Of a stretch of 64,000 nt of DNA, positions 1,782-8,745 are shown in pieces (positions within the stretch are counted from its first letter, which is position 1; each line of letters starts with the position of its first letter). The DNA is from Muricea muricata. Lineage: Eukaryota > Cnidaria > Anthozoa > Malacalcyonacea > Plexauridae. Under the pieces are notes generated by a model. That model ran no database searches and had not been told where the DNA came from. It worked only from the letters and a program-made list of their open reading frames with translations. The position numbers and the translations under genes were made by a program. Location of the stretch: positions 123,504,237 to 123,568,236 of the forward strand of contig OY979716.1 of the NCBI GenBank assembly GCA_963855995.1, read 5' to 3'.

Positions 1782-3000
1782 CCCACTTTAGTGAACAAGT
1801 AGATTCACCACTTTTTCCACAAAAAAGAGTGCTACTACTGTGTTTCATGCTATAGGCAGTCATCAGACGACTGGATACATTCAATTATTTGTCTACTTTT
1901 ATAGTCCACGTCATTAAGCTATTGTTTCTAAATTGTTTTTTGATTACTTCCTAATTGTTTCTTAATTGTCTCTTAATTGTCTCTTAATTGTCCGGTGACA
2001 TCTCTTTGACGTTTGAAAGGAGGAATTTGTCTCTGTGACGACATCTTGAAAGAGCTTCTTTTCTTTAGCAAGTTCACTTTGTTGTGGAAGATTATGTGCA
2101 ATTTTCCCCAAAGACAAAAGTTGCATGTTTTTGAGCAATTTCTGTAGGTTGGGGCTTTATCCAAGATTGACCACTCGATGTTTATCTCTTCTATATTCTT
2201 ATCTCTTAAATCCCAGACATACTTGGAGAGTTCAGTTGCGTTTGCTGTTGAACGGTGGCGTAGTGAGTTTCTGTGCTTGTAGAGCCTGTCTTCAAACAAT
2301 CTTTCAGCAAGTCCAATGTAGCTTTCTCCTCGTTGCTTTTGCTGTTGCTGACTTAACTTTGGCTAAGTATATATACTTTGTTCTCTGTTAAGCATTCACC
2401 TTTTAGGGAGCAAGTCTCTTTTACTCTGCAATTGCATTCTGCAGTGGTAATGGTATGTTGGTCTTGAAGGATTCTTTTGTTGTGGGCCTTAATGGCGTTT
2501 GAGGTGTTTGGCATGCAGCTGTAGCTGACCTTGACATTGTTTCTGTTAAATACCTTGTGTAGGTGCTGGTTTGCAGGGAAATGTTTATCTAGAAGTTGTA
2601 GGAACTTTTTCGCTATATTTGCCTTGATCGCATGACGTTCATACTATACGGGGGGTTGAACCATAATACCTTTCGTTTTCTTTTTTGGCTTTCCTGCTTC
2701 CCTGCTGTCTCAGGTGGTTGGTATACAATTTTTTCTTTGTACCCACTGGCTCTTAGGGCATCGTTGTAAAGTGGTGTGGCTTGATCGAATATTTCTTTAG
2801 ATCACGAAATTTCAGAAATACGCTTGCTGATATTTTTGGGTAGTTGTTTGGTAATGCTTGATGGATGGTTAGAACTCACGTTGATATAAAGAGGGTTGTC
2901 ATTAGGTTTTCGGTAAGGCTTGTAGGATTCATATAATTTCTCAGGTCGAGAGTTATAAACTACGCCAATCAGCACACCAATATTAGCACGAAAGATATCG
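1782..3000 (-). mobile_element. Penelope-like element A, left copy (5'-truncated)
   Basis: Minus-strand retroelement fragment. Read 5' to 3' it starts in the C-terminal part of the reverse transcriptase, with a typical PLE block (YKPYRKPNDNPLYIN, then SNHPSSITKQLPK near 2870-2930). It continues through a cysteine motif (CNCRVKET..C..C) and a GIY-YIG endonuclease domain (FEDRLYKHRNSL, TELSKYVW) at 1973-2320, then a non-coding tail. Several frame breaks make it a pseudogene. It lies 5'-to-5' against the right copy at about 3000, and its 3' tail ends at a short (TA)n run at 1768-1779. It matches the right copy over about 1 kb with scattered differences. Confidence 0.85.
1831..1870 (-). ncRNA. 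Degenerate hammerhead-ribozyme motif of PLE-A left copy
   Basis: Read on the minus strand, the core CTGATGA (1860-1866) is followed after 13 nt by GAAA (1843-1846). This is the same position as in the right copy. Stem II is only TGC/GCA, and stems I and III are no longer complementary, so activity is unlikely. It is called because its position relative to the endonuclease ORF matches the better copy at 4049-4087. Confidence 0.4.
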
Positions 3001-3484
3001 ATATTACCAGCCTTACCGAAAACCTAATGACAACCCTCTTTATATCAACGTGAGTTCTAACCATCCACCAAGCATTATCAAACAACTACCCAAAAATATC
3101 AGCAAGCGTATTTCCTAAATTTCGTCATCTAAAGAAATATTCGATCAAGCCGCACCACTTTAAAACCATGCCCTGAGACCCAGTGGGTACAAAGAAAAAT
3201 TGTATACCAATCACCTGAGACAGCAGGGAAGCAGGAGAGCCAAAAAAGAAAGCGAAAGGTATTATTGTTCACCCCCCCCGTATAGTATGAACGTCAAGAC
3301 AAATATAGCGAAAAATTCCTACAACATCTAGATAAACACTTCCAGCAGGAAACCACCACCGACACAAGGTATTTAACAGAGGCAATGTCAAGTTCAGCTA
3401 CAGCTGCATGCCAAACACCTCAAACGTCATTAAGGTCCACAACAAAAGAGTCCTTCAAGGCCAACATACCATTACCACTGCAGA

Positions 3485-3934
3485 ATGCAATTGCAGAGTA
3501 AAAGAGACTTGCCCCTAAAAGGTGAATGTTTAACAGAGAACATAGTATATTTAGCCAAAGTCAGCAACAGCAAAAGCAACGAAGAGAAAAGGTACATTGG
3601 ACTCACGGAAAGATCGTTTAAAGACAGGCTCTACAAGCACAGAAACTCACTACGCCACCGTTCACAAGCGAACGCAACCGAACTCTCCAAGTATGTCTGG
3701 GATTTAAGAGATAGAAATATAGAAGAAATAAACATCGAGTGGTCAATCTTGGAAAAAGCCCCAACCTACAGAAATGGCTCAAAAGCATGCAACCTTTGTC
3801 TTTCGGAAAAATTCCACATAATCTTTCACAACAAAGGAAACTTGCTAAGCAAAAGAAGCGAAATTCTTTCAACATGTCGTCACAGAAACAAGTTCCTCCT
3901 TTCAAACGTCAAAGAGACGCCACCGTACAATTAA
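3485..3934 (+). pseudogene. PLE-A GIY-YIG endonuclease domain
   Basis: An open frame of about 149 codons with no true upstream start, because the element is 5'-truncated. It holds the C-terminal PLE module: a cysteine cluster (C..C....CPLKGEC, 3488-3530), then the GIY-YIG fold with VYLAKV, RYIGLTERSF, the conserved Arg/His stretch DRLYKHRNSLRH and the Glu in NATELSKYVW. A Cys pair (CNLCLSEK) and the closing CRHRNKF motif follow. This domain nicks target DNA for target-primed reverse transcription in EN-plus PLEs. The reading frame is intact through the domain, but there is no RT, so the copy is non-autonomous. Confidence 0.85.
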
Positions 3935-4048
3935 GAGACGATTAAGCAACAATTGGAAAGTAATCAAAAAACAATTTAGAAACAATAGCCTAATAACAGT
4001 GGCTACCGGGTGGACTATAAAAGTAGACAAATAATTGAATCTAACCAG

Positions 4049-4087
4049 TCGTCTGATGATTGCCTAGCATGAAACACAGTGTTACGA
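4049..4087 (+). ncRNA. Hammerhead-ribozyme motif of PLE-A right copy
   Basis: Order seen: stem I strand TCGT, core CTGATGA (4053-4059), short stem II TGC-CTA-GCA, core GAAA (4071-4074), stem III ACA-CAG-TGT, cleavage base T4083, stem I strand ACGA. Stem I pairs for 4 bp (5 with a wobble) and stem III for 3 bp. The 10.1/11.1 pair is T-T and stem II is only 3 bp, so cleavage would be weak. Hammerheads in PLE terminal regions are an established finding (Cervera and De la Pena). Confidence 0.6.
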
Positions 4088-4116
4088 TATAGTTGTGAAA
4101 TTTTGGACTAGCACAG

Positions 4117-4285
4117 TATATATATATATATATATATATATATATATATATATATATATATATATATATATATATATATATATATATATATATATATATA
4201 TATATACATATATATATATATATATATGTGTGTGTGTATATATATATATATGTGTGTGTATATATATATATATATATATATATAG
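4117..4285. repeat. (TA)n array with (TG)n interruptions
   Basis: About 170 bp of TA dinucleotide with two short TGTGTG interruptions near 4226 and 4251. It abuts the 3' end of PLE-A (left) and the 3' end of PLE-B (right, minus strand), so two element tails converge on it. Confidence 0.95.
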
Positions 4286-4388
4286 ACAAGGAATGAAAAT
4301 AAAACCATATATATGAAGAAAGTGCTCAATACCGAAGTAGAGCGGAATAGGCAATGAAATAGACTTTGGTTACTTCATAAAGTTTTAT

Positions 4389-4442
4389 TCACAACAAATC
4401 TGTTTCGTATGACAAGCAATGCTTGCCACACTCGTCAGGTGA
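4389..4442 (-). ncRNA. Hammerhead ribozyme (type I, short stem III) of PLE-B
   Basis: Minus strand, 54 nt. Stem I TCAC/GTGA; core CTGACGA (4432-4438); stem II of 10 bp with two G-U wobbles (GTGTGGCAAG with CTTGTCATAC) and loop CATTG; core GAAA; stem III ACA-GATT-TGT; cleavage base T4393 before GTGA. All invariant core positions match the hammerhead consensus CUGANGA...GAAA. Such ribozymes in PLE terminal repeats are proposed to process tandem transcripts. Confidence 0.85.
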
Positions 4443-4528
4443 TAATCGCGTCTGATGTTATAATCTAGGGAAACTTGATATGTATGTTACAAATGACGTC
4501 GCGCGTTAAAGTTAATTGCATTAGTACA

Positions 4529-7921: not shown

Positions 7922-8010
7922 CACTCTCACGACCACATGCAACATGATCAAATCATTTAATTATGCATCCCTTGTACATATATTCCGTTGCGCTGTTGTA
8001 ATATTATATC

Positions 8011-8070
8011 ATTTACCTGATGAGTGTGGCAAGTTCAACACTTGCCATACGAAACAGTCCTGTAGTAAAT
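8011..8070 (+). ncRNA. Hammerhead ribozyme (type I, short stem III) of PLE-C
   Basis: Complete by eye. Stem I ATTTAC (8011-8016) pairs with GTAAAT (8065-8070). Core CTGATGA is at 8017-8023. Stem II GTGTGGCAAG/CTTGCCATAC (8024-8033, 8041-8050) has one G-U wobble and loop TTCAACA. GAAA is at 8051-8054. Stem III is ACAG/CTGT around a 2-nt loop, and the cleavage base is A8064. Every conserved core base is present. The tight stem III loop is typical of retroelement hammerheads, which may act as dimers. It lies 90 nt after the endonuclease stop codon. Confidence 0.92.
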
Positions 8071-8204
8071 AAAATTTCGATGAAGTAACTTGTGTTTCTC
8101 ATCTTGTGCTATACCGCTCTGCGTACGCATTGAGCACTCTATCCGTACGATTTTGTATGCGCTTAATTCTATCCTCACGATAGTTTCTATCACTACATTT
8201 ATCT

Positions 8205-8387
8205 ATCTATATATATATATATATATATATATATATATATATATATATATATATATATATATATATATATATATATATATATATATATATATATATATAT
8301 ATATATATATATATATATATATATATATGTATATATATATATATATATATATATATATATATATATATATATATATATATATATATT
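8205..8387. repeat. (TA)n array
   Basis: About 180 bp of nearly pure TA with one TGTA variant near 8328. The tail of PLE-C right copy ends on its left side. On its right is a PLE tail pointing the other way (8388-8471). Confidence 0.95.
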
Positions 8388-8493
8388 ATCCAGAAATCAG
8401 AACCAGGTAGGTTGCGATGTTGGTATGATAACTTAGAGCGCTCAATACCATAACTGGCAGAGCGAGCAAATAATAAGGAAGGCAAATTTTGCT

Positions 8494-8537
8494 GTCGCTA
8501 CTCTGAGTTTCACGCGCTTAGGCGATCATCAGGCAAC
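8494..8537 (-). ncRNA. Hammerhead-type motif, left arm of PLE-D
   Basis: Mirror image of 8551-8594. Stem I GTTGC/GCGAC (5 bp with one wobble), CTGATGA, stem II CGC/GCG with a 6-nt loop and a flanking T-T mismatch, GAAA, stem III ACT-CAG-AGT, cleavage base A. Stem II is weak, as in PLE-A, suggesting a related ribozyme form. Confidence 0.65.
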
Positions 8538-8550
8538 TCGAGTTGCCTGA

Positions 8551-8594
8551 GTTGCCTGATGATCGCCTAAGCGCGTGAAACTCAGAGTAGCGAC
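8551..8594 (+). ncRNA. Hammerhead-type motif, right arm of PLE-D
   Basis: Stem I GTTGC (8551-8555) with GCGAC (8590-8594); core CTGATGA 8556-8562; stem II CGC (8564-8566) with GCG (8573-8575); GAAA 8577-8580; stem III ACT 8580-8582 with AGT 8586-8588; cleavage base A8589. Both core strands fit the consensus. Opposed to the left-arm copy, a full transcript would rather fold into one long hairpin than into two ribozymes. Confidence 0.68.
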
Positions 8595-8613
8595 AGCAAA
8601 ATTTGCCTTCCTT

Positions 8614-8745
8614 ATTATATATATATATATATATATATATATATATATATATATATATATATATATATATATATATATATATATATATATATATATATAT
8701 ATATATATAGTGCATATACATATACATATATATATATATATATAT
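8614..8745. repeat. (TA)n array
   Basis: A TA array with CATATACATA variants near 8712-8725. It closes the PLE cluster on the right. Confidence 0.95.

Follow-up and report, generated by a model that had tools for sequence, protein, structure and literature searches.

Head-to-head Penelope-like element dyads in Muricea muricata nearly always pair a tailed with a tailless arm, pointing to probable twin target-primed reverse transcription

A 64,000-nucleotide stretch of the Muricea muricata genome (contig OY979716.1, positions 123,504,237 to 123,568,236 of assembly GCA_963855995.1; hereafter the window) contains, in region 1781-8745, four insertions in (TA)n assigned to Penelope-like elements (PLEs), namely the head-to-head dyads A, C and D and the solitary copy B. 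Searches of the 453 Mb genome containing the window revealed that the arms of such dyads stop either at an inner 3′ end or at an outer one about 60-95 nt further, being tailless or tailed respectively, and that almost every dyad joins one arm of each kind. We consider it probable (roughly 0.7) that every dyad arose in a single PLE integration through twin target-primed reverse transcription. This reading is supported by the two preferred ends, their near-obligate one-of-each pairing, a common stem-loop, heterogeneous junctions and, in family C, arms of the same source and of correlated length. The inner/outer asymmetry, which was missed by a first-pass annotation of the window, carries most of the mechanistic information.

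Two preferred 3′ ends and their pairing

The same two-end design was found in the three families examined genome-wide. In family C the inner end reads ...CATCTTGTGYTA followed by (TA)n, and the outer end, ~92 nt beyond, reads ...CACTACATTTATCTA followed by (TA)n; the A-related family and family D have their own sequences, and their inner end varies by several nucleotides. In L116 (L-numbers denote fetched loci, and labels such as C3:9922707 denote contig and position, distinct from family C), which has direct pseudo-long terminal repeats (pLTRs), the tail extends beyond the outer site toward the reading frame; we therefore take the tail to be the junction between pLTR and open reading frame (ORF), as in the excerpts of PMC11167929 on PAc, the Poseidon element of Anolis carolinensis.

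A pattern search located 54 inner and 65 outer ends of family C. Neighbouring ends within 15 kb formed 32 outward pairs, one inward pair (13 kb apart) and one direct pair, and 30 of the 32 outward pairs combined an inner with an outer end (P(≥30 of 32) = 5.8e-7 under random pairing). The A-related family, with 72 ends, yielded 21 outward pairs, one inward and one direct; by pattern 19 of the 21 were inner+outer and two inner/inner, and after reading of the sequence all 21 were inner+outer. At L064 the tail is present with a 4-nt insertion, and at L132/L133 an orphan tail lies 4.8 kb on and is taken as separated by an inserted element, because the intervening stretch, of which the ends were read, starts and finishes with the same inverted sequence. 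L119 and L120, both within the 21, have a junction in common and probably represent a single duplicated event. All eight simple D dyads (window D, L069, L070, L071, L072, L083, L084 and L086) were inner+outer, a sample that is biased because these dyads were found with a palindromic query; 11 of the 20 fetched D loci were unscorable (ten run off the stretch and L088 consists of direct fragments); of the others, L082 has a complex structure and L073 is a repeat of L072. The genome-wide D count covers tailed ends, of which there are 16. Dyad A of the window also fits the pairing rule.

Four further loci deserve record. The apparent inserted element at L132 and L133 (C2, about 11745380 to 11750110) has inverted ends GTGACCCTCTTTGGG... 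and lies at TATA between pLTR and tail; the inner start site would therefore also be targeted by another transposon. L082 (C3:59445083-59446392) is a D dyad that contains a nested palindrome and, at the centre, an internal fragment of the tail, which suggests several template switches in one event. L061 passes, near its 3′ end, through the inner site into an apparent reading-frame start lacking the stem-loop, and may represent another kind of tandem or derive from a template that was spliced. Finally, the same D dyad with identical flanks stands on two contigs (C61:265006-265617 and C2:27792395-27793006), probably as an uncollapsed haplotype.

The first-pass annotation had named a predominance of solitary or direct tandem copies as what would refute its account of paired copies. 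By pattern, 64 of the 119 family C ends (54%) are in outward pairs and 52 are unpaired. Nineteen loci with unpaired ends were scored: eight have an opposite arm, eight are solitary, meaning that no partner occurs in the stretch read (roughly 0.6-1.7 kb past the arm's 5′ end), and three are unclear. This sample is non-random, L104-L106 having been fetched since their partner was already visible, and without them the counts are 5, 8 and 3; at L011 and L019, two further ends unpaired by pattern also have a partner arm. On the pair counts and the scored loci together, dyads are more common than solitary copies in family C, though the latter are real.

A covarying stem-loop beside the inner site

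Immediately 3′ of the inner site lies a stem-loop composed of YGCUC, a variable stem of 3-5 bp, a 2-nt 3′ bulge and GAGCR; the loop has 4 nt in 11 of the 13 versions. These versions, representing families and subfamilies, were hand-picked for distinct inner stems from 34 strings, with near-duplicates omitted, and were aligned by hand. Because the search pattern fixes GCTC and GAGC, only the inner stem serves as a covariation test; 47 of its 51 pairs are formed, compared with a shuffle mean of 66.5%, and none of 5000 shuffles, which ignore stem length, reached the observed value. In ten of the versions both stems form in a clean fold, the others having an internal loop (L001), an interruption (L084b) or no inner stem (L040). 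The stem-loop is a candidate RNA-binding site of the PLE enzyme.

Source, length and junctions of the paired arms

Variant sharing indicates that the two arms of a family C dyad probably derive from the same source. A C/T (Y) site beside the inner end agrees between arms in 32 of 32 dyads (8 C, 24 T; P = 2e-8), and 25 of 60 doubletons fall in the same dyad, with 35 in different dyads and 1.16 expected in the same one (this count excludes the '+' arm at C3:50230024, which is of another family at 65% identity). At polymorphisms shared among C dyads the arms agree in 351 of 377 cells, where 244 would be expected; the mis-assigned C3:50230024 is included here and contributes eight of the 26 disagreements. 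Measured by whole-arm identity, the partner is not surpassed by any other arm in 13 of the 27 C dyads scored.

The 5′ starts of paired C arms correlate (rho 0.85, n = 28; none of 20,000 permutations as close), with a median difference of 38.5 nt versus 528 nt in permutations. Twelve dyads are short/short, 14 long/long and two mixed, at a boundary (q1820) picked after inspection of the data, and the starts of short dyads are concentrated at the ribozyme's 5′ edge (see below). The longer arm is the outer one in 15 dyads and the inner one in 12, the arms being equal in one; in some the inner arm is longer by hundreds of nucleotides (669 versus 24 at C2:63696; 436 versus 93 at C2:32702). At the junctions of these 28 dyads, delimited by BLAST ends, the arms overlap in 16, are blunt in four and are separated by filler in eight; because starts are BLAST ends, some overlaps and starts are off by several nucleotides (for example C1:118691). 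The set omits the inner/inner and outer/outer dyads, C1:10329281 and C1:34851199 (not fetched) and C1:53577748, C13:7700361 and C2:68009531 (cores unresolved), and adds C1:5765, C1:107749 and C3:28524 from locus reading.

Proposed twin priming and its alternatives

In the proposed integration, the PLE enzyme would cut both strands of the (TA)n target, whereupon one exposed 3′ end would prime at the inner site, directly 5′ of the RNA stem-loop, and the other at the outer site, downstream of it. Both complementary DNAs (cDNAs) would extend toward the RNA 5′ end and then be joined together by end joining, giving a product with 3′ ends outward, one tailed and one tailless arm and a direct 5′-5′ junction. 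Priming may be simultaneous and carried out by a protein dimer, and the short dyads, in which many arms begin at the ribozyme's 5′ edge, may reflect the 5′ end of the PLE transcript. Twin priming accounts for 3′ ends that face outward, for 5′ ends that meet directly, and for two arms that come from the same source but stop at different sites. The first-pass annotation had suggested that a second copy is primed on the opposite strand at the same TA target; priming on two strands is retained here, but the common private variants speak against an unrelated insertion.

It is very improbable that the arms of each dyad inserted independently, in opposite orientations, into a single TA run. TA runs are indeed repeated PLE targets and hold solitary copies (PLE-B, L108 and L112), but no TA run separates the arms in the junctions read, and the excess of outward over inward pairs (32 versus 1), the common private variants and the tail rule all go against it; pair orientation and private variants led us to reject it as a general account. 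Descent of all dyads from one ancestral dimer moved as a unit is more improbable still: some events look duplicated (C61 and C2:27.79 Mb have the same flanks, and C1:23.23 and 23.46 Mb the same junction), but junctions and truncation points differ, and we reject this reading on junction diversity. The many different junctions genome-wide agree with the earlier view of the window dyads as separate events.

Self-priming, in which the first cDNA folds back and copies itself into a palindrome, was proposed for Adineta vaga Penelope in the excerpts of PMC3846280. It would produce near-perfect short palindromes such as PLE-D and arms with variants in common, and the outer/outer dyad at C3:9922707 could be such a case, but a copied arm must match its template's end and cannot exceed its length, whereas the inner arm is the longer one in 12 of 28 dyads, and where the tailless arm is longer the tail sits only on the short arm. 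Because a copy cannot outrun its tailed template, snapback is ruled out for those dyads, and as an account of dyads in general we regard it as improbable.

Within twin priming, we tentatively favour a version in which two reverse transcriptases (RTs) read one RNA, the leading enzyme starting at the inner site and the trailing one at the outer site. A PLE dimer may hold this RNA astride the stem-loop, its two RTs each primed by a different target strand, an arrangement that we put at somewhat below even odds. A single RNA carrying both polymerases would account both for starts that are almost never identical and for arms of the same length class. Slightly more doubtful, and still a serious contender, is a version with two ribonucleoproteins that prime on opposite target strands, each with an RNA of its own derived from one common source locus; two enzyme conformations would then create the asymmetry. 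Same-source arms would also be expected here if enzyme and RNA stay together, and large arm-length differences in some long dyads would be accounted for; however, about half of the dyads should then be mixed unless both elongations stop simultaneously, as opposed to 2 of 28 observed, and there is no built-in cause for one inner and one outer start.

Several observations weigh against twin priming or its single-RNA version. Partnerless copies exist, both inner and outer (8 of 19 loci scored), and the rule is violated by two of the 32 C dyads, one outer/outer (C3:9922707) and one inner/inner (C12:7826582). In 14 of 27 C dyads scored (one mis-assigned), an arm outside the dyad is closer than the partner, as is possible in a young family of low divergence, so identity alone is no proof of a common source, and gene conversion between arms could mimic common private variants. 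Long arms differ by up to 1036 nt and hence do not simply stop at one RNA 5′ end. In 14 short dyads of the A-related family the 5′ starts cluster without correlation (rho 0.33, p 0.25; 14 of the 15 fetched were used, L120 repeating L119, and L121 and L124 are discontinuous). The excerpts of PMC11167929 report no start-site difference between strands for PAc in vitro, and the RT and GIY-YIG domains lack convincing scores in Pfam, NCBIfam and PDB.

Assignment to Penelope-like elements

Stop-to-stop frames of the longer copies, up to 582 amino acids, contain FDVVDFYPSI, YRDDG and TYVGLTE in that order, which we take to be that of a PLE RT followed by the C-terminal GIY-YIG endonuclease of EN+ (endonuclease-bearing) PLEs. 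A Pfam search of the PLE frames returned no RT or GIY-YIG match, NCBIfam gave weak RT matches (best 4e-5, far under the cut-off), and a PDB sequence search with a profile of nine proteins found no chain at E ≤ 0.1; a structure model of the protein was of low confidence (predicted local distance difference test, pLDDT, 47), its top PDB match, I-TevI, being non-significant (E 1.1). The architecture includes the pLTRs of EN+ PLEs, as inverted dyads in three families and as a direct repeat in L116, together with an optional 3′ tail at the pLTR-ORF junction, variable 5′ starts reflecting 5′ truncation and, at most ends read, TA runs as AT-rich target. Motifs and architecture together thus identify the elements as probable PLEs.

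Predicted hammerhead-type ribozymes

The hammerhead core consensus is CUGANGA..GAAA..UH with three stems. Both PLE-C arms show 0 mismatches to the 39-nt family core pattern, and the putative PLE-C ribozyme folds around a full core, with stem I perfect over 6 bp, stem II 10-11 bp long and stem III minimal. Fold z-scores were -4.4 for C, -3.2 for B, -1.8 for D (folded with upstream letters borrowed from longer D copies) and -0.07 for A. In PLE-D the core CTGATGA..GAAA is present in both arms with a weaker fold; the right arm of PLE-A has the core letters and no special fold, and its left arm keeps CTGATGA and GAAAC, the remainder being broken. A type I hammerhead core is thus predicted in C and B from letters and fold, less firmly in D, and from letters in the right arm of A. 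A motif in each arm, as first annotated, accordingly stands for C and, as a core, for D, and is weak for A.

Of the folding and covariance checks suggested earlier, the fold of C is favourable, but no hammerhead match to Rfam emerged, whether the window was searched at the gathering score or region 1700-8760 at E ≤ 5; because RF00163 has no match there, we call the window motifs hammerhead-type and not RF00163 members. At least 55 RF00163 matches occur elsewhere in the genome (74 of 54994 candidates scored). Three are strong, up to 45 bits, and lie in opposite orientations within 700 bp (L001, L002 and L004, at C1:118243855, 118244201 and 118244441); because L001 and L002 also carry the PLE-type tail stem-loop, a PLE family with canonical hammerheads may exist there. 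Six weaker matches extend across about 1.2 Mb of one contig (C14:6.34-7.57 Mb).

Arm starts in family C fall at q1855-1880, the 5′ edge of the ribozyme, in 12 of 56 cases and at q1912-1930, near the predicted cut, in four of 56, and 20 of 28 starts in A-related short dyads are within 12 nt of the ribozyme core. Ribozyme cleavage as the source of the 5′ ends was mostly rejected, as starts gather at the ribozyme's 5′ edge.

The four insertions in the window

The earlier description of the three window dyads as 5′-truncated copies joined 5′ to 5′, with both outer ends on TA runs and differing truncation points, was largely confirmed; it had left out the solitary PLE-B in the same 7 kb, whose 5′ end adjoins TA (Table 1). 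The 3′ ends of dyads A, C and D face outward. Arms 5210-6143 and 7180-8113 of PLE-C form a 934 nt palindrome (98% complementary), arms 8470-8539 and 8549-8618 of PLE-D one of 70 nt (100%), and those of PLE-A are complementary piecewise, at 80-95%, between 1853 and 4066. Dyads C and D have direct 5′-5′ contact with no TA in between, and the centre of PLE-A (2935-2994) is without a TA run. The ends of each dyad are unequal, one arm stopping at the inner site and its partner being tailed: the tails are on the right arm of C (8114 to ~8205), on the left arm of D (~8388-8469) and, as a remnant, on the left arm of A.

Table 1 Features of the PLE insertions, in window coordinates
Feature	Position	Strand	Remarks
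PLE-A left arm	1781..2934	-	3′ end at 1781 on TA; tail remnant AGCACTCTTTTTTG after internal deletion
PLE-A right arm	2995..4116	+	tailless; 3′ end on TA
Hammerhead-like core, PLE-A right arm	4049..4087	+	letters fit, fold not special
PLE-B	4287..5116 (about)	-	solitary, tailed, 5′-truncated; TA run on either side
PLE-B tail stem-loop	4323..4343	-	UUCG loop
PLE-C left arm	5210..6143	-	tailless, with inner 3′ end on TA at 5210; motif-based GIY-YIG-like region
Hammerhead motif, PLE-C left arm	5253..5312	-	coordinates via 98% arm alignment
PLE-C right arm to inner site	6144..8113	+	RT fragments (broken frame) and GIY-YIG-like region by motif
Hammerhead motif, PLE-C right arm	8011..8070	+	predicted cleavage after 8064
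PLE-C right-arm tail	8114..8205	+	outer 3′ end on TA
Covarying stem-loop, PLE-C tail	8115..8136	+	immediately 3′ of inner start site
PLE-D left arm with tail	8388..8544	-	outer end
PLE-D tail stem-loop	8439..8464	-	
Hammerhead-like motif, PLE-D left arm	8494..8537	-	
PLE-D right arm	8545..8618	+	tailless inner end on TA
Hammerhead-like motif, PLE-D right arm	8542..8594	+	first 3 nt within junction palindrome

Comparison with known systems

We drew on excerpts of four PLE papers (PMC3846280, PMC11167929, PMC8969392 and PMC12910113). Inverted copies, an optional 3′ tail and hammerheads have all been published for PLEs, and the combination pointed out at first pass is not new: PMC3846280 reports inverted pLTRs of which one may be tailed, and PMC11167929 a PLE protein that cuts and extends both strands. 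The one-of-each end rule was not found in the open-access PLE literature, covered largely as titles and abstract starts; within that literature it is apparently new, and an earlier description elsewhere is possible.

Penelope of A. vaga (Pen2a, Pen5 and Pen6) has inverted pLTRs, one of which may carry a tail, and is most often arranged head-to-head (PMC3846280), and resembles the dyads described here in its inverted pLTRs, one-sided tail, 5′ truncation, junction palindromes and AT-rich targets. There, however, the authors describe the tail as optional and favour self-priming, whereas here a rule of one tailed and one tailless arm was counted, and the same-source C arms and the arm lengths oppose self-priming. 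Target site duplications are unreadable here because the targets are (TA)n.

The PAc protein cuts and extends both strands, and the PAc tail lies between two RT start sites (PMC11167929). Common to both systems are a preference for AT-rich DNA, two internal RT start sites bounding the tail and a start near a stem-loop at the pLTR-ORF junction, with a hammerhead just upstream. PAc is described in tandem arrays, its two sites not being linked to inverted dyads in those excerpts, and its stem-loop is called AC-rich, in contrast to the GCUC-[variable stem]-UU-GAGC found here (PMC11167929).

The tail rule bears on how inverted PLE copies form and on why a tail occurs at some ends: it lets genomic copies be read as traces of a linked pair of primings, and it yields sharp predictions for an enzyme system already working in vitro. 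In L1 twin priming, one RNA is primed at two places, one 3′ end is kept and an inversion results. The PLE dyads resemble it in having two primings on opposite strands at one target, but differ in that both arms have 3′ ends and both begin at dedicated sites; if the single-RNA version is true, retrotransposition would here follow a route on which both target strands prime the same template.

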